Shown in pieces: positions 4,329 through 15,112 of a DNA stretch of 15,112 nucleotides. The number at the start of each line of letters is the position of its first letter. Within the stretch, counting starts at the first letter, position 1. The notes beneath the pieces were generated by a model. The model was not told where the DNA came from and did not search any database. It was given only the letters and a program-made list of their open reading frames with translations. A program made the translations under genes and the position numbers. The stretch is from Scenedesmus sp. ARA3. Its lineage: Eukaryota; Chlorophyta; Chlorophyceae; Sphaeropleales; Scenedesmaceae. Where the stretch lies: NCBI GenBank assembly GCA_004335835.1, contig RWJK01000177.1, positions 1 through 15,112 of the forward strand. Direction: 5' to 3'.

Positions 4329-4365
4329 TCACCAGCTGTAGCCCATGTCGCGCAGCCAGTTCAGC
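4329..4365 (-). repeat. Distant end echo of exon 12
   Basis: The minus strand reads LLNWLRDMGYSW followed by TGA at 4329-4331, the same last nine residues and stop as exon 12. The upstream part of the copy is degenerate and merges with a short duplicated CAGCAGTTGCAGGCTGCAG (4363 and about 4400). Confidence 0.75.
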
Positions 4366-4476
4366 AGCAGTTGCAGGCTGCAGCAGTTGCATCCCAGGCA
4401 GCAGCAGTTGCAGGCTGCAGCCAAGCCCTTCAACGAACATGCTGTGGCCAACGGTATTGCCACAGTGCAATCTGCA

Positions 4477-4626
4477 TCACCAGCTGTAGCACATGTCACA
4501 CAGCCAGCCCAGCTGTAGCACATGTCACACAGCCACCCCAGCTGTAGCACATGTCACACAGCCACCCCAGCTGTAGCACATGACACACAGCCACCCCAGC
4601 TGTAGCACATGTCACACAGCCAGCCC
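4477..4626 (-). repeat. 29-bp minisatellite, five copies, derived from the end of exon 12
   Basis: AGCTGTAGCACATG recurs at 4482, 4511, 4540, 4569 and 4598, exactly 29 bases apart. On minus each unit resembles the exon 12 tail codons (G-W-L-C-D-M-C-Y-S-W), but 29 is not a multiple of 3, so the array is not translated as a continuous repeat. One unit carries a TGACACA variant. Confidence 0.93.
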
Positions 4627-4709
4627 AGCACAGTGCCGCGCAGCACCAATCACAGGCTGCAATCAACACATTCAACAACCAGGTGTCGCCCGTACACACA
4701 CCGTGCACA

Positions 4710-4803
4710 TCACCAGCTGCAGCCCATGTCACGCAGCCAGCCCAGCACAGTCCCAGGCAGCAGCAGGTCCCATATGACGGCCTCGTGCAGGTGCCTCCGA
4801 AGT
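4710..4803 (-). CDS. Possible second alternative terminal exon; end echo of exon 12
   Basis: Encodes LHEAVIWDLLLPGTVLGWL then RDMGCSW and TGA at 4710-4712. Against the exon 12 tail, 9 of 10 codon differences are synonymous (the other is Tyr to Cys). An AG acceptor at 4805-4804 would enter in phase 2 and keep this frame, giving ILRRHLHEAV after exon 11. Splicing use is unproven; it lacks the NAFIPW block. Confidence 0.4.
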
Positions 4804-4889
4804 CTGCATCACCACCTGAACTGCAGCAGGCCTCAACCGCCAGCTAAACCCCAGCAAGACTCAATTGCCAGCTGTCAAACACATCCGCA

Positions 4890-5052
4890 TCACCAGCTGT
4901 AGCCCATGTCACGCAACCAGCCCAATACTGTGCCGGGCAGCAGCAGGTCCCAGATCACAGCCTCGTGCAGCTGCCGCTTGTTGCTGCTGCCCCAGGGGAT
5001 AAAGGCGTTGCTGCGCGGCTGCAGGTGCAGGGCCAGCTCTGGCACGTGGCGC
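4890..5052 (-). CDS. DOX: Alpha-dioxygenase exon 12, preferred terminal exon (residues 593-645)
   Basis: Acceptor GTGCAG|G completes Met592 and gives MRHVPELALHLQPRS, NAFIPWGSSNKR, then QLHEAVIWDLLLPG and TVLGWLRDMGYSW before TGA at 4890-4892. I prefer it over the 5209-5296 copy because start echoes elsewhere always lie upstream of the true exon, and because the LHEAV...W tail is conserved at the protein level in a further copy (4710-4803). No TGTAA polyadenylation signal was found close downstream. Confidence 0.7.
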
Positions 5053-5762
5053 CTGCACTCACAAAAGCACGCAACAGGTGATCACCTGTTTATGAAGCAC
5101 TCTAATGCTTTGTGGAATAGGAGCAGCAGGAGCAGCTTGAGCCTCAGCTTGCAACACCTGCATTTCAAGGGCATTTGCAATGGTTATGTCGCATGGTTTA
5201 ATAAGAAGCTAATGGTGCCGCTTGTTGCTGCTGCCCCAGGGGATGAAGGCGTTGCTGCGCGGCTGCAGGTGCAGGGCCAGCTCCGGCACGTGGCGCCTGC
5301 ATTTGCAGGAGCAAACAGTGCATTGCATTACATATGTGTTTGCACTGTCACAACTGCAGGTGCAGCTCGGGTGTCGCTCATGCGCACATCAAAACACACT
5401 CAACTGTTGTTCTACCAGCAAGTGCTTCTATAGGGTGATAGCTGCAGGTGCGGGCCCAGCTCTGGCACCTGCAGCTGCTGCTGCTTTGCTGTGCTGCTGC
5501 CACCCACGTCAGGGTGTCGCTCATGGTGGTGTCGTGCACTGACCCATGCTCGCAGAGGTGCCACTTTCTACTAGTGCTGCTGCTGCTGCTGTGTTGTGCT
5601 GCTGCCATCACTTACATAAGGATGTCGCTCATGGTGGTGTCGTGCACGTAGGCCAGCCCCGCAGCCGTGTATGCGGCCTCGTCAAAGTCTGCCGTGTAGA
5701 AGCGGTCACTCTCCAGGCGGCGCTGCGTCTGCAGCACAAAGATGGTGTACACGGCCTCGCCT

Positions 5763-5798
<36 letters not shown>

Positions 5799-5872
5799 CG
5801 GGTTCACCTTTAACACTGCTTTGCAGGCTGGGGTGCGTCTGCAGCACAAAGATGGTGTACACGGCCTCGCCT

Positions 5873-5916
<44 letters not shown>

Positions 5917-6244
5917 GAAGCTTTAGTAATGCTCTGCAGGCTGTTCTTTATCTGCAACACGATCATGGTGTTGCAGCTGCCATCACAAATTCTACTATGC
6001 GCAATCTAACCCCAAAAACCATCAAATAACAACAAGTAACACATAAAATTAACGCTCACCAAAGATCCAGCCAGGCAGCGGCGTCTCAGCCAGCAGGCCC
6101 ACCGCCACATCAATCTTGTCAATGTCGTTGCCGTACACCTGCAGCAGCAGCGGCAGCAGCAGCAGCAGCAACAGCACTGTGAGACAGTCTCAGCCAGTAG
6201 GCTTACTGCCACATCAATCTTGTCGATATCGTTGCCATACACCT

Positions 6245-6284
<40 letters not shown>

Positions 6285-9200
6285 CAGCAGGACCAGGCGT
6301 CAGCAGCTGATGCTCAGAAGCAACCATGCTAGCTGAGCACCCAGCGGCTGGCTGGGCCTTGTACCACTTTTGCCAGTGCTGTTGCCATACGGGAATGGTG
6401 CACATGCAGCATGCAGCATGGCTGGCCAGCTGCTGACGCTGTTCGTGGCGGGACATGTAGAGCATGCTGCCAGCAGCTGCTGCGTTTTAGGAGATGTGCA
6501 ACCTGCTCCAGTAGATGGCACATTTTGCGCAGACTATGCTCACCTCCTTGAGTGCGGCACGCGCGCCAGCATCCTCAATGCCCAGCTTGTCAAACGATGA
6601 GTAGGTGGGCAGCGACAGCGCCTGCAGGCACACAGCACATGCAACACATGCAGCAGTGGCTGGTAAGATGCCTCGCAAGACGTGACAGTGCGCAAAAGTT
6701 GTTGGTCTAATGCACCCAACGCTGCCGGCAGCAGGAGGTGATCAGGCCCTTCAGTCACCTTCAGGTACGAGTTGAACAGTGGCAGGCGTGACTCCCGTCC
6801 ACGCCACACGTCCACCGCAGCCATGTCCAGCAGCTTGTGCGGCTTGGGCTGCTCGGCGTTCTGGGCCTTGAGTGCGGGCGTCTCCAGGCTGCGCAGCGCA
6901 GTGGGGAAGTTGCGCAGCTCCAGCGCACCTGCAGGTACATGACATGGCGCATAGTATATGATCTGAAAACATGCGGCTTGGGCTGTTCCATGTTTTTGGC
7001 CTTGAGTGCAGGTGTCTCCAGGCTGCGCAGTGCACTAGGGAAGTTGCGCAGCTCAAGCGCGCCTGCAGGACACAGCAAGGTCAAGAATCATTGTACAACG
7101 GTGACGGATAATCGAAAGTTGCTAATAATGCTCAGTTGCCCCTCCCGCAGTGTTGGCATCTGCAGGCTGCGCAGCGCCGTGGCGAAGTCAGCAGCGGCAC
7201 ACTGGTGATGACAGCAGTGCCCTTGTCCAGAATGACGTCTCTTGTTATTCCACCTTGGCTCACAACAAAAATAACAACAGATAAGCGAAAGTTGCTGATA
7301 ACGCTCAATTGCCCCTCCCGCAGTGTTGGCATCTCTAGGCATTGTACATGTAACAGGTGTGAGAAAACAACACGGCTACACAGCCACTGGCTGTGGTCGG
7401 CCAGCCCACCTGCCTGACCCACGCCCAGTGTGTAGAACAGGTCAGGCAGTTGTACGCTGGTGTTAACAGCAGTGCCCTTGTCCAGGATGATGTCCATTGT
7501 GTTTTTGATGGTATATAACAAACTCAACAATATAACACAGCCAGCGTGGCTGCATGGTCCACGCCGAGCGTGTAGAACAAGTCAGGCAGTGGCACGCTGG
7601 TGTTGACAGCAGTGCCCTTGTCGAGGATGATTTTCCCTGTTTTTTTGTGATGGATGACAACAGATAGAACAAGATAACATGACCAGCCCACCTGCATGGC
7701 CCACGCCCAGTGTGTAGAACAGGTCAGGCAGCGGCACTTGTTTTGACAGCAGTGCCCTTGTCCAGGATCATGCCTGCTGTTATTTGTGATGGCTAACAAC
7801 AAATGTAACAAAATAACATAATAAACACACCTGCGTGGCCCACGTTGAGGGTGTAGAACAGGTCGGGCAGCGGCACGCTGGTGTTGACCGCAGTGCACTT
7901 GTCGAGGATGATGTCCTGTTATACTAAATATAAAACAAGATGTAACAAAGTAACACAGCCAGCCTACCTGCATGGCCCACGCCCAGGGTGTAGAACAGGT
8001 CAGGCAGTGGCACGCTGGTGTTGACCGCAGTGCCCTTGTCCAGGATGATGTCACCCAGGCCCACAGTCTTGATGAGTTTGCCGCTGGAGGATGCCCGCAG
8101 CTCCACGCTGTCTGGCAGAAGTGAGTGCATGCGGTACACCTGCAGCATACACATGTGCAGAAACACGGAGTTGCTTGTGAGTCCAGGCAGCGTAAGCAAG
8201 GCGTCGCTGCGTAAACAGGGCCAAGCAGCTCCACGCTGTCTGGCAGCAGCGAGTGCATGCGGTACACCTGCGGCAGAAGAGAGACAGAGAGGGACCGTTA
8301 CACCTTGGTGTGCACTATCATCAATGGACTCTTTCAAGAGCAATAAACAGGTTGTCACCAGCCACCACTGTGCTGATGCCATGATTGCTGCACAAGAACT
8401 GCCCGATGAAGGTGTCACCAGTTACACCCATACACCAGGTGTCACTAGTTGCACATATCACTCACCGCAATGAACTCCTCGGAGTGCGCGAAGGGCAGGT
8501 TGTCATCCACCATCAACGTGTTGCTGCCGGGGATGCCGCACGGGAACTGCCCGATGAAGGCGTCACTAGTTACACCCACACTCCGTGTCTCACTAGTTAC
8601 ACCTGGCGCTCACCGCAATGAACTCCTCCGAGTGAGCAAAGGGCAGGTTGTCACCGGCCATCACAGTGTTGCTGCCAGGGATGCCGCACAGGAACTGCCC
8701 GATGAAGGTGGGCAGGCGCCGCAGCAGCTTGGTGAGGGTGTGCAGCTTGCGGCCGAAGAGTGTGCCCAGGATGCCATACCACAGGAAGTACTGTGACACA
8801 ATAATAACAGACAAATAACATGATAGTGTCAGATTACATGACAGCTTGGTGAGGGTGTGCAGCTTGCGTCCAAACAGTGTGCCCAGGATACCGTACCACA
8901 GGAAGTACTGCAAAAGAAAATGGAAGACAGCAGATCATGTTATGAGCAGCTTGGTGGGGGTGTGCAGCTTGCGGCCGAAGAGTGTGCCCAGGATGCCGTA
9001 CCACAGGAAGTACTGCGGCACAAAAGTAACAGATAAGCAACATGAAAGTGACAGAATACATAAGCAGCTTGGTGAGGGTGTGCAGCTTGCGGCCAAACAT
9101 TGTGCCCAAGATGCTGTACCGCAGGAAGTACTACAGCGCAAAAAAAAACATATAGATCACATGACAGTGTCAGAATGCATGAGCAGCACGTGAGGGTGTG

Positions 9201-10711
9201 CAGCTTGCAACCGAAGAGTGTGCCCAGCATGCCGTACCACAGGAAGTACTGCAGCACAAAAGTAACAGATATATAACATGGAAGTGTCAAAGTGCATGAG
9301 CAGCTTGGTGAGGGTGTGCAGCTTGCGGCCCATTGAGCGCCCAGGATCGTTGTTACACCGGAAGTCCTGCAAAAAAGGGTTAGGAGTGAATGTAGAAATG
9401 TAGACAATGTTGTCAGCAGCCTGGTGAGGGTGTGCAGCTTGCGGCCCAGCAGTGTCTCAGAATGCCGAACCACAGGAAGTACTGCGAAAGAAAAGGGGAG
9501 ACACCAGATTACGTATGAGCAACCTGGTGAGGGTGTGCAGCTTGCAGCCCAGCAGTGTGCCCAGGATGCCGTACCACAGGAAGTACTGCAGCACAAAAAG
9601 TAACGGATTTATAACGTGAAAGTGACACAATGCATGACAGCTTGGTGAGGGTGTGCAGCTTGCGACCGAAGAGTGTGCCCAGAATGCCGTACCACAGGAA
9701 GTACTGCAAAGCATATGGAACAGAAGAGAACCTCAGGCAGCGAGCAGTGTGGTAAGGGTGTGCAGCTGTTGGCCGGGGCGCTTTCTGAATGGTGTTACTG
9801 CAATGTATTTGTAACATTGATTTGACATTGCCAGCTACAGCCACCCCGTGAACCCACACCTGAGACCCACCTGTGACGCGCGGCCTGCCGGGTGCTGAAT
9901 GATGGCGATCGTCCACTCAACTGTGGTGATGCGCACCAGCAGCGCCCTGATTCTAAACCCCTTAAACCTCTAAAACCCTGCGAATCCCTTAATCCCACCT
10001 GTGACGCGCGGCCTGCCGTGTGCTGGATGATGGCGGTCGTCCACTCCACCGTGTGGATGCGCGCTAAGGAAGCCTGAAAACCCTAATATGTGGACCCGTT
10101 AAAACCCCTGACACTCTTTTGAAAAATTTATTTGTACCTGTGACGCGCGGCCTGCCGGGTGCTGGATGATTGCAGTGGTCCACTCCACGGTGTGGATGCG
10201 CGTAAGCAGCGCCCTAATTCTAAACCTCTGAAACCTCTAAAACCCCACAAATCCACTAAGACCCACCTGTGACGCGCATCCCGCTGGGTGCTGGATGATG
10301 GCGGTCGTCCACTCCACCGTGTGGATGCGCGCAAAGGAAGTCCAAAACCCTAATCTGTGGATCCCTTAAACCCCTGACACCCTCATGAAACCTTTATTTG
10401 TACCTGTGATGCGCGTCCTGCCGGGTGCTGGATGATTGCAGTGGTCCACTCCACGGTGTGGATGCGCGCCAGCAGCGCGGTGATGATCAGGCGCGCTGCA
10501 GCAAACAGTTTGGCGTCGTCCCTGTAACAACAGCAGCAGCAGCAATGACGATTTGTGAGCTCCGTAATGATATATTACGTTGCGGCAAACAGCTTGCCAT
10601 CGTCCTTGCCAGCAACAGCAGAAGCAGCAGCAGCAGCAGCAGCATTGACAAGACATCAGCACGGTAATAATGAGGCGCGCCGTCGCAAACAACTTGGCGT
10701 CATCCCTGTGG

Positions 10712-10747
<36 letters not shown>

Positions 10748-10817
10748 TGACAAGACATCAGCGTGGTGATGAAGAGGCGCGCCGCGGCAAACAACTTGGC
10801 GCCATTTCTGTGGAAGT

Positions 10818-10848
<31 letters not shown>

Positions 10849-11934
10849 GCAGCTGTCAGACATCAGTGCGGTAATGATGGAGCGCCCTGCAGCGAATGTC
10901 TTATTGTCCTGCCTGCAGCACCATGAGCAGCGGCAGCAGTGCAGCTTCGACAACAGGACAGCGGCATCCCATCTGAACAGTGCCTTTCAGGGCGGCCGCT
11001 CGCCAGGTGGGGTTGTTGGCCTTGAGCATGTCACACACCACGTTGTGCTACTTGGCAAAACTTAAACCGCAGGCACTAGGCAGCAACAACTTGTGCATTG
11101 TGCATCGCTGCAAGAACAGCGCAGCTCACCACAGCACATCAGGCGGTCATGCCGCAATCACCGCCGTTGACTGATGGATCAAGCGTTGCAACGAGCCAAC
11201 TAACAGCCTGCTTGTTTGCGTACTACTGGTATCCGCCAGTGCTCACCATGTAGGGTTATTTGCCTTGAGCATGTCACACACCATGTTGTGCTCCTTGGCA
11301 AACAGCGCTGTCGGCCAAACCCAAGCCGCATGCACCAGGCAGCAACAGGTTGTGTATTGTGCACTGCTGCATGGGCAGGGCAGCTTACCACAGCAGATCA
11401 GGCGGTCATGCCGCAATCACCGCCGTTGACTGATGGATTGCAACGTTACAGTGAGCCAAGTGACAGCCTGCTTGGTTGTATATGTACACTAGATAGTGTG
11501 TACTATCCGCCAGAGCTCACCATGTAGGGTTCTTTGCCTTGAGCATGTCACACACCGTGTTGTGCTCCTTGGCAAACACAAAGTGCAGCAGCTGCAGCCC
11601 AGTCCACAGGTTCAAGTTAAACCCCACAAGCTCCGTCCCAGCCGCATCCAGCGGCAGATAGGTGCCATCTGACGTTACAGGGCCGTTATTAACAAGGCGC
11701 AGCTTGCCGTCGATCCCGCTGCGCAGCTCGTGGTTTTTGTCCGGGGTTGTGCCGTAGATCTGGCAGCCGCTCCACCAGTGGTCGTGGTTGTTAATAACAG
11801 AACCCTCGCGGTTTAGCACGGCGGGCTGCAGGGGCATAACAGAGCCGCCGGGGAGCGGGAAGGTGACCGGGGCGGCCTTTTGGTCCTTGCGCAGCTCAAA
11901 CCAGTCGTGTAGCATGAACTGGATCCAGGCACCT

Positions 11935-11978
<44 letters not shown>

Positions 11979-13578
11979 GCAAGAAGCATGGTTGGCATGC
12001 GTCTGTGCAGACAGCGTATTCACAACAGCAGTGCTGTGCACAGCTGCGATTGCAGCAGCACTGCAAAATTGGTGTTTGCAGCAAGCAGCGGACCTCGCAG
12101 CAGTGCACATGCCAAGGGCAGCAACAGCAGCTGCGTAAAAAGACAGCATGGGTTCTTACAACATTTGTCTTCTAGCAGTCCAAGCTCACCGCCCACCAGA
12201 TTGACCAGGAAGGTGGCAGCAGCAGCAGCAGCAACAGCAGCACCACACTGTACAGCATCAGTTGATGTCAGGCCCCACACAACACCAGCTCACCTCCCAG
12301 CAGGTTTGCCAGGGGGTGTACCTTGGTCACCCCATCAGGTCCAACAGCACGTAAAAGACAGCATGAAATAGCAACGTATGTCATTATGTGGCAGGCCCAG
12401 CTCACCTGCTATGTGCACCTGCTATGTGCAGGCCCAGCTCACCTCCCAGCAGGTTGACCAGGGGCCGCGTCTTAGTCACCCCACCAGGTCCAACATGTAC
12501 AGCATGTAAAAGGAAGCATGATATAACAATGTATGTTACTTTGCAGGCCTGGCTCACCCCCCAGCAGGTTGACCAGGGGCCGCGTCTTGGTGACGCCCCC
12601 AGGGCGTGCAAGGATCTTCTGAGCCACCAGCACTGGGTCGGGGCCGTCAAGTGGCTTCTGCAATGTACAAATGCAAGGGCTTTAGCAGTTTGCAAGTGCA
12701 GCAAAGCATTGGTTTGATTGCCAGGCTGCTGGAGACATCAGCAGAGGTTTGGGGACCATCAACTGGCTGCTGCAATTGGCAGACAGGAAAACAGGAACAG
12801 GGCAGGCGCCAAGCCTTTTGTTAAAATTGTGTGAATGTCACGGTCATCAGGCGTTTGCAAACAGCAGCAGAGGATCGGGCGCACTGCTGCTGCTGCTGCT
12901 GCCCCAGCTCACCGTCTTGTTGCCCTGAGCCACGGGCGTGTTGCGGATGAAGGGGCAGCCAGTCATGGCCAGGCAAGGACACAGCGTGCCAGTACATTTA
13001 GAGCAGTGATTGCTGGCACATTTGGACAAATCATAAAACTGCTGCTGCTGCTGCTGCTGCTGCTGCCCCAGCTCACCATCATGTTGCCCTCTGCCGCAGG
13101 CGTGTTGCGGATGAAGGGGCAGCCAGTCATGGCCATGGTAGGGCGCTGCTGGTTGTTCAATGAGCCCTCGAATGTCCTGGCGTCCAGGGGCGTGCCATTT
13201 TCGCGGATGGCGCTGGATGGGGGCAGCGTGGGGGCGGCCAGGTTCCTCTCGCGCAGGATGACCCTCTTGCTGATCAGGTATACCACCTGCCATGAAGTCA
13301 AGTAATATGTATTATGAAGCGAAATATTAGACGTTATTTCTGTGTTGGAGGGCTTTCTGTTTATGGCTGTCTGCAGCAGTGAAAGCAAGCTGCGGTACCG
13401 CTGCTGCTACTGCTGCTGCTGCTGCTGCTGCTGTGTGCCACCTGGCACAGCAGCGAGGTCTCACCTGCAGCGGGGGCCACAGCTTAAGCCAGAAGGGCTG
13501 CAAGGCTCTGTACACGACGTACAGCAGCATATCCACGATGCGTGAAACCGCACTCGAGATGAGATCTCCCACACTCAT
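4890..13578 (-). CDS. DOX: Fatty-acid alpha-dioxygenase (alpha-DOX/PIOX type heme peroxidase), 12 exons, 645 aa
   Basis: Exons (minus strand, high to low): 13578-13465, 13286-13077, 12657-12558, 11932-11521, 10521-10404, 8790-8614, 8139-7968, 6928-6759, 6621-6544, 6138-6060, 5760-5616, 5052-4890; 1938 coding bases. All introns are GT-AG and all phases agree. Known for the family: heme enzymes that add O2 to the alpha carbon of fatty acids, giving 2-hydroperoxides that decay to CO2 and a shortened aldehyde. Seen: distal His150 in HDW, WW..G..IYG (194-202), EHN (264-266), IHTVEWT (His300, Thr305; carboxylate contacts in the plant enzyme), YRMH (catalytic Tyr379, proximal His382), D.WRGRES (from 469), RRLESDRFYT (557-566), RHVPEL...NAFIPW (593-612). 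The N-terminus resembles the amphipathic membrane-binding helices of plant alpha-DOX, and length is close to the plant enzymes (about 640). An in-frame TAA at 13624-13626, with no ATG between, supports the start. Use of particular splice-site copies is inferred. Confidence 0.92.
5209..5296 (-). CDS. Alternative terminal exon or start echo of exon 12
   Basis: It copies the acceptor and first 26 codons of exon 12; over those codons it differs at two synonymous sites and at no amino-acid position. The similarity stops at NKR, and the frame then closes with two His codons and TAG at 5209-5211, which would give a 620-residue protein. It could be a real short terminal exon or a truncated duplicate. 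Confidence 0.5.
5365..5560 (-). repeat. End echoes of exon 11 in intron 11
   Basis: One copy (about 5508-5560) repeats VHDTTMSDTL plus a GTGGGT donor, 108 bases from the true exon end. A shorter one (about 5365-5390) keeps only the MSDT codons. Confidence 0.8.
5616..5760 (-). CDS. DOX: Alpha-dioxygenase exon 11 (residues 545-591)
   Basis: Acceptor formed by (CTG)11-CAG. Encodes EAVYTIFVLQ, RRLESDRFYTADFDEAAYT and GLAYVHDTTMSDIL. One arginine of RRLESDRF should be the substrate-carboxylate arginine known in rice alpha-DOX (Arg559); I cannot tell which by eye. Donor AT|GTAAGT, phase 2. Confidence 0.93.
5764..5796 (+). repeat. (CAG)11; reads (CTG)11 at the exon 11 acceptor
   Basis: In transcript orientation this CTG tract runs straight into the CAG acceptor of exon 11 and takes the place of a polypyrimidine tract. 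Confidence 0.95.
5825..5990 (-). repeat. Start echoes of exon 11 with their own CTG tract
   Basis: The copy with acceptor at 5870 repeats EAVYTIFVLQT 110 bases upstream of the true acceptor and is preceded by its own (CTG)14. A more degenerate third copy lies at about 5930-5990. Confidence 0.85.
5874..5915 (+). repeat. (CAG)14 at the exon 11 start echo
   Basis: Uninterrupted tract with the same placement relative to the echo's acceptor as the tract at 5764-5796 has to the true exon, showing that the duplicated unit included the microsatellite. Confidence 0.95.
6060..6138 (-). CDS. DOX: Alpha-dioxygenase exon 10 (residues 518-543)
   Basis: Encodes VYGNDIDKIDVAVGLLAETP and LPGWIF, the family 'lYG.didkvDl.vGl.aE' element. 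The acceptor follows an interrupted CTG tract (transcript sense); the donor is GTGAGC, phase 1. One start echo lies upstream with acceptor at 6242. Confidence 0.92.
6185..6281 (-). repeat. Start echo of exon 10 plus CTG tract
   Basis: VYGNDIDKIDVAV is repeated with an acceptor at 6242, 104 bases upstream of the true one. The tract at 6249-6281 is (CAG)11 on plus. Confidence 0.88.
6544..6621 (-). CDS. DOX: Alpha-dioxygenase exon 9 (residues 492-517)
   Basis: Short exon in phase 0, TGCAG acceptor and GTGAGC donor, encoding ALSLPTYSSFDKLGIEDAG and RAALKE. It joins FNSYLK to VYGNDIDKID as in relatives. I see no echo of its start in the short intron 8 (137 bases). Confidence 0.88.
6759..6928 (-). 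CDS. DOX: Alpha-dioxygenase exon 8 (residues 436-491)
   Basis: Encodes ALELRNFPTALRSLETP (family 'GALELWNFP..LR'), then DMAAVDVWRGRESRLPLFNSYLK, matching the conserved 'D.aalD..R.RE....yN' block. Phase 1 entry restores Gly435. The donor is GTGACT. Another copy of its start sits at 7062, and a chimeric copy near 7180. Confidence 0.93.
6973..7062 (-). repeat. Start echo of exon 8
   Basis: A TGCAG acceptor at 7062 followed by ALELRNFPSALRSLETPALK and on to about QPKPH, 134 bases upstream of the true exon 8 acceptor. Confidence 0.88.
7103..7340 (-). repeat. Chimeric exon 7 end / exon 8 start echo and duplicated flank
   Basis: On minus, 7245-7190 reads DVILDKGTAVITSVP (exon 7) and 7190-7150 continues with bases equivalent to DFATALRSL (exon 8), without an intron between but out of phase. 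The flank after it (7103-7155) is repeated at 7284-7340, 181 bases away. Confidence 0.8.
7410..7915 (-). repeat. Four end echoes of exon 7, ~140-bp period
   Basis: Exon-like ends at 7410, 7550, 7692 and 7831 follow the true end at 7968 with spacings 140, 142, 139 and 137. Each repeats LDKGTAVNTSVPLPDLFYTLG-like codons. Donors are GTGGGC at 7410 and 7692 and GTGTGT at 7831; at 7550 the GT has become CC. Confidence 0.92.
7968..8139 (-). CDS. DOX: Alpha-dioxygenase exon 7 (residues 378-434): catalytic Tyr and proximal His
   Basis: Starts VYRMHSLLPD. Tyr379 and His382 occupy the place of rice Tyr380/His383 and COX Tyr385/His388, the radical-bearing tyrosine and heme axial ligand. It continues through GDIILDKGTAVNTSVPLPD and LFYTLGVGHA, leaving in phase 1 at GTAGGC. 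Its end is repeated four more times in intron 7 and its start once in intron 6. Confidence 0.94.
8226..8267 (-). repeat. Start echo of exon 7
   Basis: CCGCAG acceptor at 8267 followed by VYRMHSLLPDSVEL, 128 bases upstream of the true exon 7. It therefore duplicates the codons for the catalytic Tyr and proximal His. Confidence 0.9.
8318..8565 (-). repeat. Two end echoes of exon 6, ~148-bp period
   Basis: A well-preserved copy ends at 8466 with GCG|GTGAGT-like bases. A more diverged copy ends near 8318; both carry the QFLCGIP...NLPF region in recognisable form. Confidence 0.85.
8614..8790 (-). CDS. DOX: Alpha-dioxygenase exon 6 (residues 319-377)
   Basis: Begins CACAG|TACTTC and encodes YFLWYGILGTLFGRKLH, equivalent to the family 'anWYGLLG..f' block, then IPGSNTVMAGDNLPF and HSEEFIA. 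Phase 0 at both ends; spliced to exon 7 it reads EEFIAVYRMHSLLPD, a close family match. About eight further copies of its first ~65 bases lie upstream in intron 5, and two copies of its end lie downstream. Confidence 0.93.
8835..9775 (-). repeat. Exon 6 start array: eight extra acceptor-plus-exon copies
   Basis: Exon-like first bases lie at 8907, 9012, 9130, 9248, 9366, 9481, 9585 and 9703 (true exon 8790); spacings 117, 105, 118, 118, 118, 115, 104, 118. Each unit is an intron tail, an acceptor and about 65 bases of exon 6 (YFLWYGILGTLFGRKLHTL-like). A ninth, poor remnant lies at about 9743-9775. Confidence 0.95.
9871..10340 (-). repeat. Exon 5 end array: four extra copies, two alternating unit types
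   Basis: Exon-like ends at 9871, 9999, 10138 and 10267 precede (in plus numbering) the true end at 10404; spacings 128, 139, 129, 137. Each carries ARIHTVEWTTAIIQHPAGR-like codons and a donor. Flanks alternate, making a 266-267 bp higher-order unit. Confidence 0.93.
10404..10521 (-). CDS. DOX: Alpha-dioxygenase exon 5 (residues 280-318): IHTVEWT
   Basis: Encodes DDAKLFAAARLIITALLA then IHTVEWTTAIIQHP. His300 and Thr305 align with His311 and Thr316 of rice alpha-DOX, which contact the fatty-acid carboxylate. The donor GTACAA is weaker than the usual GTGAGC. Both ends are heavily echoed: starts upstream (10565-10920), ends downstream (9871-10340). Confidence 0.93.
10565..10920 (-). repeat. Exon 5 start array with CTG tracts: four extra copies
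   Basis: Copies with acceptors near 10592, 10702, 10803 and 10905 repeat DDAKLFAAARLIIT-like codons, each preceded in transcript sense by a CTG tract; the longest, 10715-10744, is ten units. Each copy switches out of exon sequence after about 55-60 bases. Confidence 0.9.
11005..11315 (-). repeat. Two end echoes of exon 4
   Basis: Copies of the FAKEHN.VCDMLKA..PTW segment end at about 11005 and 11247. The first has a TAG in place of the EHN glutamate codon and GC instead of GT at the donor position; the second keeps GTGAGC. A flank with CCGCAATCACCGCCGTTGAC is duplicated as well (about 11150 and 11410). Confidence 0.9.
11521..11932 (-). CDS. DOX: Alpha-dioxygenase exon 4 (residues 143-278): distal His, EHN motif
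   Basis: This is the longest exon (412 bases, entering phase 1, leaving phase 2). It contains AWIQFMLHDW with distal heme-pocket His150, NNHDHWWSGCQIYG, NLWTGLQLLHFVFA and KEHNTVCDMLK. Most relatives have WWDG where this protein has WWSG. The acceptor is formed directly by (CTG)14-CAG, and the donor is TG|GTGAGC, completing Trp279 with exon 5. Confidence 0.95.
11936..11977 (+). repeat. (CAG)14; reads (CTG)14 at the exon 4 acceptor
   Basis: Uninterrupted tract whose transcript-sense CTG units abut the CAG acceptor of exon 4. Confidence 0.96.
12185..12480 (-). repeat. Three end echoes of exon 3
   Basis: Exon-like ends at 12190, 12294 and 12443, all followed by GTGAGC, with spacings 104, 149 and 115 to the true end at 12558. 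They repeat GVTKTRPLVNLLGG-like codons, increasingly diverged with distance. CTATGTGCA is further duplicated at 12409-12430. Confidence 0.9.
12558..12657 (-). CDS. DOX: Alpha-dioxygenase exon 3 (residues 109-141, then split Gly142)
   Basis: Acceptor TTGCAG, donor GTGAGC, phase 1 exit. It encodes DPVLVAQKILARP followed by LVNLLG; with exon 4 this becomes LVNLLGGAWIQFMLHDW, the family motif leading into the distal histidine. Three degenerate copies of its end follow in intron 3. Confidence 0.87.
12913..12970 (-). repeat. End echo of exon 2
   Basis: Repeats AMTGCPFIRNTPVAQGNKT and a GTGAGCTGGGG donor followed by a CAG tract (transcript sense), 164 bases downstream of the true exon end. Confidence 0.9.
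13039..13065 (+). repeat. (CTG)9; reads (CAG)9 just after the exon 2 donor
   Basis: In the transcript this is GTGAGCTGGGG followed by CAG units. The tract at 12885-12902 has the same relation to the exon 2 echo. Confidence 0.95.
13077..13286 (-). CDS. DOX: Alpha-dioxygenase exon 2 (residues 39-108)
   Basis: Acceptor GGCAG, phase 0 at both ends. It encodes VVYLISKRVILRERNL, equivalent to the plant 'YLA.RR.LH..YNL' segment, then DARTFEGSLNN and GCPFIRNTP, equivalent to the family 'DG.YND...GTRFGRN' block. The donor GTGAGC is followed by GGGG and a CAG tract. The end of this exon is copied once downstream (last exon-like base 12913). Confidence 0.88.
13410..13433 (+). repeat. (CTG)8 in intron 1; reads (CAG)8 after the exon 1 donor
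   Basis: About 30 bases downstream of the exon 1 donor in transcript sense. Intron 1 (178 bases) otherwise shows no exon echo. Confidence 0.93.
13465..13578 (-). CDS. DOX: Alpha-dioxygenase exon 1 (residues 1-38)
   Basis: Starts at ATG 13578 and ends CTGCAG|GTGAGA in phase 0. It encodes a hydrophobic/amphipathic stretch with LLYVVYRALQPFW, matching the membrane-associating helix region before the catalytic domain of plant alpha-DOX. No cleavable signal peptide is evident. A (CTG)8 tract on the plus strand, reading CAG in the transcript, lies in the intron just after the donor. Confidence 0.85.
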
Positions 13579-14180: not shown

Positions 14181-14908
14181 CACGCAACTGTCTTTTGAAT
14201 CCCTGGTACTGCGACGTACTTTGAGGGGAAGGCCCGCTGTTATGGAAATAACTGCGCCAGAACTGCTGTTCTTCCAGCTGGCAGACGGAGTAACTTGAAG
14301 ATACTTGTTTCAGCTGCAGCTGCAGCTGCATGCATGGCGCCAGCTGCCTGATGTTCGGCTGCGGCTGAGCTGCCATGGCTGGGGTTGCATTCAACCCGGA
14401 TTTGATAGAAACTAACGTTTATTTCCTACAAATTTAGCTATCTAAGTGTAATCAATCAACTGGAGCCAGAGGCCCATGGCCCATGCGGCATGCATGGGAG
14501 CAGCAACACTGCTGTGCCTGTTGCTTGTGCCAATGCCATAAAACATCCTGCTGCAGGCATGTAGCATATTCAAATATGGGAAGCGGTTCTGCAGCCACAT
14601 CGCGGCATGCGTTCACCGCCGCTCTCCGCACAGTCATGGATTTGACCGCCACTCAAGGTCACTGCAATAAAACAGCATGCAGGTGTTTGCAGAAATTAAA
14701 CCAAACTAAAGTAAAATGCTTATGCAGTAACTGCATGCCAATGCCACATCACAGAATCGCCAGCTGGTAGAGCAGCACAGCTGTGAGTCAATTGATGGAG
14801 TGGTGCTCAGGCCCTGGTGGTGTGCTGTGCTGCAACTCCACGTCACGTGCGCACTCATGCGATGTTCAATGCACAGTGCATTCAAAGCCAAAAGCGGCAC
14901 AGAAACGG
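14181..14908. other. No supported gene
   Basis: Only short frames with no recognisable similarity. An AGCTGC-rich palindromic stretch (about 14311-14333) and scattered TGCATG motifs are the only structure I see. Confidence 0.4.
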
Positions 14909-15053
14909 CTGCTGCTGCTGCTGCTGCTTGCGCGAAGGTCTGCGCTATAGATGAAGGGTGCGGCACATCATATCAAGGAACTGCTGCTGCTGCTGGTGCT
15001 GCTTGCAGGAAGGTCGGTGCCATAGGTGAACAGTGCGGCACACTATACAATGC

Positions 15054-15054
<1 letters not shown>
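14909..15054 (+). repeat. 72-74 bp repeat, each unit headed by a CTG tract
   Basis: Units begin at CTG tracts 14909 and 14981, with the third tract at 15055. After each tract comes CTTGC..GAAGGTC and a segment with GTGCGGCACA. The second unit has CTTGCAG|GAAGG, which would be a good acceptor on plus. Confidence 0.85.

Positions 15055-15112
<58 letters not shown>
15055..15112 (+). repeat. (CTG)19+ running off the window end
   Basis: Uninterrupted 58 bases, the longest pure trinucleotide tract in the window; its true length is unknown because the window stops inside it. Confidence 0.97.

Follow-up and report, generated by a model that had tools for sequence, protein, structure and literature searches.

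The introns of a gene from Scenedesmus sp. ARA3 carry rows of diverged copies of the neighbouring exon edges, in which the exon-derived part resembles the true exon while the adjoining intron bases often do not. We regard these rows as likely, on balance, to have been founded by tandem duplication across a single exon edge and to have been kept exon-like by repeated gene conversion or unequal exchange.

Exon-edge copies in an alpha-dioxygenase-type gene

The window, by which we mean the whole stretch of 15,112 bases analysed, is contig C105 in its entirety and carries the gene on the minus strand. Twelve exons (exon 1, 13465-13578; exon 2, 13077-13286; exon 3, 12558-12657; exon 4, 11521-11932; exon 5, 10404-10521; exon 6, 8614-8790; exon 7, 7968-8139; exon 8, 6759-6928; exon 9, 6544-6621; exon 10, 6060-6138; exon 11, 5616-5760; and exon 12 with the stop codon, 4891-5052) join into an open frame of 645 residues. 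All eleven introns, which measure 178, 419, 625, 999, 1613, 474, 1039, 137, 405, 299 and 563 bases from the first to the last, are bounded by GT..AG. Table values in PMC5966456 give mean intron lengths of 230, 302, 462, 284 and 270 bases for five algae, where 462 is taken as the Tetradesmus obliquus value by our own assignment of the columns. A Pfam search placed PF03098 (animal haem peroxidase) over residues 75-604 of the protein (E = 8e-77), and the best PDB matches of a 124-residue piece were fatty acid alpha-dioxygenases; judged by these matches, the gene encodes a haem peroxidase of the alpha-dioxygenase type. The nearest protein, the independently annotated T. obliquus record P0001, is 99% identical and runs across all eleven junctions as we set them, differing at the start and at seven residues. 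On this match the alga is probably T. obliquus itself or a very close relative. The ATG of exon 1 was chosen as the start, and P0001 begins 16 residues later.

When the 12 exons were run by BLAST against the gene strand (E≤1e-3), 44 matches fell outside the query exon, 37 of them intronic and seven, two of which overlap, past the stop codon. All 37 intronic matches sit in an intron adjacent to their exon; copies of an exon's start lie upstream of it and copies of its end downstream. A few of the matches are interior pieces ending short of the exon edge. The copies occupy introns 2-7 and 9-11, and at this threshold, which copies with badly decayed exon parts escape, introns 1 and 8 showed no exon-edge copies. 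Both this distribution and the unbroken order had been claimed in a sequence-only reading of the window, and BLAST bore them out. That reading had also proposed that intron length follows copy number, with 1613 bases for intron 5 and 137 for intron 8. Both lengths were exact, and the correlation was strong (Spearman 0.96; n = 11 introns, 35 copies at E≤1e-4), each copy adding about 110 bases of intron by the slope over the same 11 introns. Its estimate of about 12 copies in intron 5 was close to the 13 matches that we counted, four end and nine start copies, one of the latter being a partial interior piece.

All copies listed here lie on the minus strand. Intron 2 holds one exon 2 end copy with the donor GTGAGC (12915-12985, 85%), and intron 3 holds two exon 3 end copies with donors (12445-12488 and 12296-12339). 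A diverged extra start copy of exon 3, upstream of that exon, was seen by eye, lies below the reach of BLAST and is uncounted. In intron 4 there are two exon 4 end copies (11247-11304 with GT, 11004-11072 with GC) and four exon 5 start copies (within 10558-10896), two of them at E = 6e-4 only. Intron 5 contains four exon 5 end copies, all with GT and with two types of intron flank (9871-10332), followed by nine exon 6 start copies, eight with AG (8842-9775; 9734-9775 is the partial piece). Two exon 6 end copies (8322-8560) and an exon 7 start copy with its acceptor (8225-8267) are found in intron 6, and five exon 7 end copies, the last partial (7187-7915), and two exon 8 start copies, the upstream one partial (6972-7188), in intron 7. 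Introns 9 and 10 hold one start copy each, of exon 10 (6187-6242) and exon 11 (5819-5870), and intron 11 holds an exon 11 end copy (5511-5560), a short exon 12 start copy of 31 bases whose junction lacks AG (5441-5471) and an 81-base exon 12 start copy with two differences (5216-5296). In the start-copy arrays at 10611-10879, 5709-5971 and 6083-6280 the intron parts are CAG/CTG microsatellites, so that likeness of flanks is uninformative there, because microsatellites look alike anyway.

The seven matches to the coding end of exon 12 lie in the 3' flank (4330-4795), and part of them forms a 29-base tandem array (4480-4629). Being located in no intron, they stand outside the per-intron tally. 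Since the edge at the stop codon was copied too, the order rule extends beyond splicing to coding edges in general.

Spread beyond the gene and architecture of the arrays

The assembly comprises 87.3 Mb in 1567 contigs. A chaperonin Pfam search of the genome gave 43 exon matches, from which ten loci with 42 matches were taken and one match, on C1192, was left out. Exon edges were set by simple splice-consensus scoring near the ends of the Pfam matches, without transcripts, so that the high consensus of the true chaperonin splice sites is partly built in. When the exons were matched to their own locus, seven of the ten loci had exon-edge copies; C837 and C1260 yielded no clean copies and C1552 only two weak matches (71-72%). 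Matches more than 3,500 bases away, simple-repeat matches and one copy near a locus end were dropped before counting. Copies accompanied 34 of the 54 exons, 10 of 12 in the dioxygenase gene and 24 of 42 in the chaperonin loci. The 119 matches over these exons divided into 112 that touch an edge on the expected side, one on the wrong side (72% identical, at C1552) and six interior pieces. The expected side was thus taken by 112 of 113 edge-touching copies, and random placement of the copies, the outcome that the sequence-only reading had named as telling against it, was not seen in this sample of genes. Seven of the 112 are the stop-edge matches, which we included in the order count and in the 111 flank comparisons given below and excluded from the splice-edge counts.

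We also sampled 20 ten-kilobase stretches chosen regardless of genes (200 kb, of which 8,494 are N). Local direct repeats made up 11.5% of this sequence. A donor-like motif stood at the repeat end in both copies in 19% of 165 pairs, compared with 2.8% at interior controls, and an acceptor-like motif in 20%, compared with 9.7% at interior control positions. The exon-edge copy pattern is therefore widespread in what was sampled, as distinct from the whole genome. In two of the stretches (L015 and L018) the local repeats show many multiple-of-three shifts and are probably repetitive proteins and not exon-edge copies.

Units within an array are spaced by a median of 130 bases (10th-90th percentile 109-184; n = 105), and the lengths of the exon parts recur inside many arrays, for example 54 and 54, 63 and 63, or 82-84. 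Of 72 pairs with unrelated flanks, 49% have interior breakpoints no more than 3 bases apart, compared with 10% between arrays, and 17 of 23 arrays hold an unrelated-flank pair with such a common breakpoint. Common interior breakpoints indicate that the units of an array mostly descend from one duplication, and these comparisons suggest that each array was, for the most part, founded by a single event. One upstream array, at exon 177-228 of the chaperonin locus L031, forms a clear higher-order repeat, its spacers of 73, 53, 73, 53 and 71 bases alternating with two exon-part lengths. Telomere-like GGGTTTAG stretches occur on the donor side of introns in several genes, for example in intron 5 and at L023; GGGTTT was counted 10 times below 47 donors and once above 52 acceptors, which are small counts.

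Exon parts, flanks and the case for exchange

We compared exon parts and flanks in 111 exon-copy pairs. The mean difference was 0.111 in the exon part and 0.284 in the adjoining 40 intron bases; as a control, random pairing of flank parts across the pool, same-array pairs allowed, gave 0.394. In 101 of the 111 pairs the flank had diverged more than the exon part. On the acceptor side identity was 0.90-0.94 over CAG and 0.60 one base further out; on the donor side it was 0.96, 0.89, 0.78, 0.62 and 0.82 over GT(A/G)NG and about 0.4 beyond. Identity thus drops sharply at the splice consensus, the CAG that ends the intron and the GT(A/G)NG that begins it.

Flanks of 105 exon-copy pairs were classed as related (27), unclear (21) or unrelated (57). 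Exon difference in these three classes was 0.048, 0.068 and 0.065 at first and second positions and 0.165, 0.212 and 0.179 at third positions, so that exon divergence is about equal whether the flank is related or unrelated. The clearest case is a chaperonin copy with no exon differences over 68 bases, followed by GTGAG and then by unrelated intron, in which flank and 120-base spacer aligned no better than shuffled sequence. Likewise, the exon 12 start copy with 2 differences in 81 bases has a flank and spacer without detectable relation when compared with shuffled sequence. In a 60-base flank test of nine young copies, five showed a flank relation and four did not (two borderline, p = 0.06). 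When the whole spacer or 120 bases of six copies was compared with the flank of the true exon, none reached p < 0.05 (0.47, 0.44, 0.057, 0.20, 0.18 and 0.59); one of these six had given p = 0.007 in the 60-base test.

According to the sequence-only reading, repeated tandem duplication of segments spanning one junction would give exactly this pattern, and the order was taken as its sign. Duplication across one junction held up on order, spacing and common breakpoints. The order itself holds but is nearly forced, because copies made by any frame-sparing tandem duplication across one edge end up on its intron side, and it is therefore neither independent evidence nor a pointer to a splice-directed process. 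The word exactly did not stand, since the flanks are often unrelated and a homogenising step seems needed. Plain serial tandem duplication followed by neutral decay, with no exchange, is accordingly an explanation that we judge unlikely. The 27 of 105 pairs with clearly related flanks, which differ by 0.167 at aligned columns, near the third-position difference of the exon parts, fit it, as does one array at exon 272-329 of C530 in which a whole unit is nearly identical. Against it stand the 57 unrelated flanks at an exon first- and second-position difference of about 6% and the identical 68-base edge described above, as it would require spacers to change many times faster than the exon-derived DNA beside them, which is just as intronic.

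Simulated arrays of six units, with turnover by duplication alone or with added homology-dependent conversion, bear on the same choice. Under duplication alone, unrelated flanks made up 0, 0, 2 and 0% in four settings at exon divergence like that observed, compared with 57 of 105 in the real pairs. Seven settings with conversion gave 92, 84, 84, 34, 4, 20 and 82%, but only one, with the weakest conversion, approached the exon divergence of the real pairs, and acceptors were kept in only 28-56% under conversion-only settings. The ratio of third- to first/second-position differences was 0-2.3 under conversion, compared with 2.75-3.5 in the exon-copy pairs, which is itself above the value of about 2 that we reason for neutral copies of a constrained exon. 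Since the conversion simulations miss this ratio, a simple conversion model is incomplete; in these models conversion can yield the decoupling of exon and flank, and they reproduce only part of the pattern. A first simulation of nine settings was replaced because exon first/second-position divergence (0.18-0.60) was far above the real values and the flanks diverged too, and a pure gene-conversion simulation was set aside, having given decoupled flanks without the codon-position ratio.

Incompatible site pairs point towards exchange among copies, although the evidence is not overwhelming. Of 13 arrays examined, nine had usable pairs of informative sites in the exon parts, and 28 of 46 pairs, in eight of the nine, were incompatible with a tree. 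Under a snapshot null the fraction was reached in 0.7% of runs (P = 0.007) and the count in 4% (P = 0.04); under a star-tree null the fraction was reached in 26% of runs and the count never, and under a random-tree null the fraction never and the count in 85%.

With exon parts about 89% identical and intron parts often unrelated, a further homogenising step seems needed, and exchange is the best supported reading, one to which the sequence comparisons point without demonstrating it. A single tandem duplication across one exon edge would found the array, and unequal exchange between units would lengthen the intron. The functional exon and its copies would exchange sequence, possibly between alleles, which would refresh the exon-derived parts, and the spacers, with too little homology to be refreshed, would drift apart. 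More tentatively, functional exons might act genome-wide as master templates that rewrite their own partial intronic copies and occasionally take sequence back, while old splice junctions pass into the intron and are succeeded by new ones; exon homology would then seed an engine of intron growth.

Splicing, coding status and relation to known systems

The splice dinucleotide is kept in 93 of the 105 splice-edge copies. Of the 55 end copies, 49 have GT and 43 the full GT[AG].G, compared with 15% of random GT in the dioxygenase introns, and start copies have AG in 44 of 50; 45 of 47 true donors carry the full motif, most having been picked by that consensus. Such retention would suit copies kept by selection for a non-coding job, for example as platforms or decoys for splice factors, which we nevertheless consider improbable. 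Exon-part identity stays level across the 60 bases next to the junction (0.909, 0.890 and 0.907 in 51 copies with an exon part of at least 66 bases), far wider than a splice signal, and is therefore neither a footprint of such a signal nor centred on the splice site. The stop-codon edge speaks against a splicing role too, and by our own arithmetic the survival of the dinucleotides is in line with the per-site change of 6% seen in exon parts. A splice-directed origin was dropped as unneeded for the same reason, the echo at the stop codon; if ancestral introns were short, an edge would fall inside most duplications of 100-150 bases.

Most copies thus keep good sites one to a few units (about 130 bases each) from the real one, which splicing must ignore. 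The junctions that give the frame, matching related proteins, are those nearest the exon body. Under exon definition, the nearest acceptor and donor are paired across the exon. For arrays ordered as these are, such pairing would always select the true splice pair, and the arrays may be tolerated because exon definition picks this nearest, true pair.

Differences between exons and copies favour third positions (391 of 654), as would be expected if the copies were alternative or mutually exclusive partial exons. We give that explanation very little credence: 20 of 22 exon-part indels are not multiples of three, stops make up 5 of 238 private changes, with 2.4% expected from mutation alone, and neither AG ahead of end copies (at most 0.11) nor GT behind start copies (at most 0.14) is concentrated at any one offset. 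No whole-exon copy with both splice sites and an open frame was found, each copy holding one edge only, and coding use of the copies was rejected on these indels, stops and one-edge structure.

Changes private to a copy number 65, 63 and 110 at first, second and third positions over all loci, where base composition predicts about 59 of the 238 at the third; once the most diverged copy of each array was dropped, 34 of 70 were at third positions. In the dioxygenase gene alone the counts are 38, 36 and 50, near neutral in look. Measured against a synonymous yardstick, private amino-acid changes (129) and stops (5) reach about half of the expectation (265 and 9, by our own arithmetic). Variants common to at least two copies and absent from the exon fall at third positions in 41 of 52 cases, and changes along the lineage of the exon itself would likewise produce such third-position-rich shared variants. 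We read the excess as a sign that copy lineages were, for part of their history, functional exons or exon edges, a past that exchange between alleles could produce, for example if unequal exchange retired edges. Three amino-acid differences between the exons and P0001 lie under readable copies, and by eye the copies carry the P0001 residue at two of them (K/N in exon 4 and Q/K in exon 8). Trans-strain sharing was not used as evidence, its polarity being unsettled by outgroups.

An assembly artefact that invented or miscounted the arrays is hardly credible, because, although the contig is only 15,112 bases long with a CTG-repeat end and the genome lies in 1567 contigs, the units are about 10% different from one another and their spacers are distinct, the pattern recurs in the seven independent chaperonin loci, and splice-like motifs mark repeat ends across the 20 random stretches.

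Introner-like mobile introns place the same sequence at many unrelated loci. A search of the genome with 390 bases of exon 4, in which common words are skipped, returned the exon itself and one 36-base copy in the same gene. In concerted evolution, tandem repeats are kept alike by gene conversion and unequal crossing-over. The arrays resemble such families in that copies stay alike despite mutation and unit types alternate in higher order, but only the exon-derived half is kept alike here, and the members include a functional exon, which is under selection. The nearest case found in print is a potato gene for an RNA-dependent RNA polymerase, in which a single tandem duplication that crossed an intron-exon boundary made a new intron (PMC4974935). 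There, as in the alga, the duplicated segment crosses one boundary and brings splice signals; the potato case is one event that gave a new intron, whereas in the alga existing introns were lengthened by many copies, and, in this comparison, only the alga shows this at many junctions of the genes examined and with the exon-derived parts kept alike. The same source reviews the AGGT model, citing Hellsten 2011, and multiple exonic duplications in fission yeast; as cited there, these likewise duplicate coding DNA in tandem with the protein unchanged, and the new intron is cut from the duplicated exon. In the alga, by contrast, each copy is an exon edge with its own acceptor or donor inside an old intron; the introns do not consist of duplicated exon alone, as the copies have flanks of their own and lie between non-exonic spacers. 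Among the titles and abstract openings listed by our literature search, which was of limited coverage, none dealt with serial exon-edge echoes as a genome-wide feature or with their homogenisation.

The arrays offer a traceable route of spliceosomal intron lengthening, apparently widespread in one genome, of a kind whose traces are usually erased. Should the exchange be real, intronic copies could be a source of synonymous variation, and even of residues, in functional exons, with consequences for dating, for population genetics and for the annotation of genes in the alga.

Further features lie outside the dioxygenase gene. An open frame of 259 codons at 1392-2171 on the plus strand, for which a Pfam search gave no match, has a long CAG-repeat tail and probably belongs to a second gene. 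The stretch 14904-15077 is a 75-base tandem array containing CTG runs, and 15055-15112 is pure CTG repeat inside which the contig ends; the assembly probably stops at 15,112 because of this terminal repeat.
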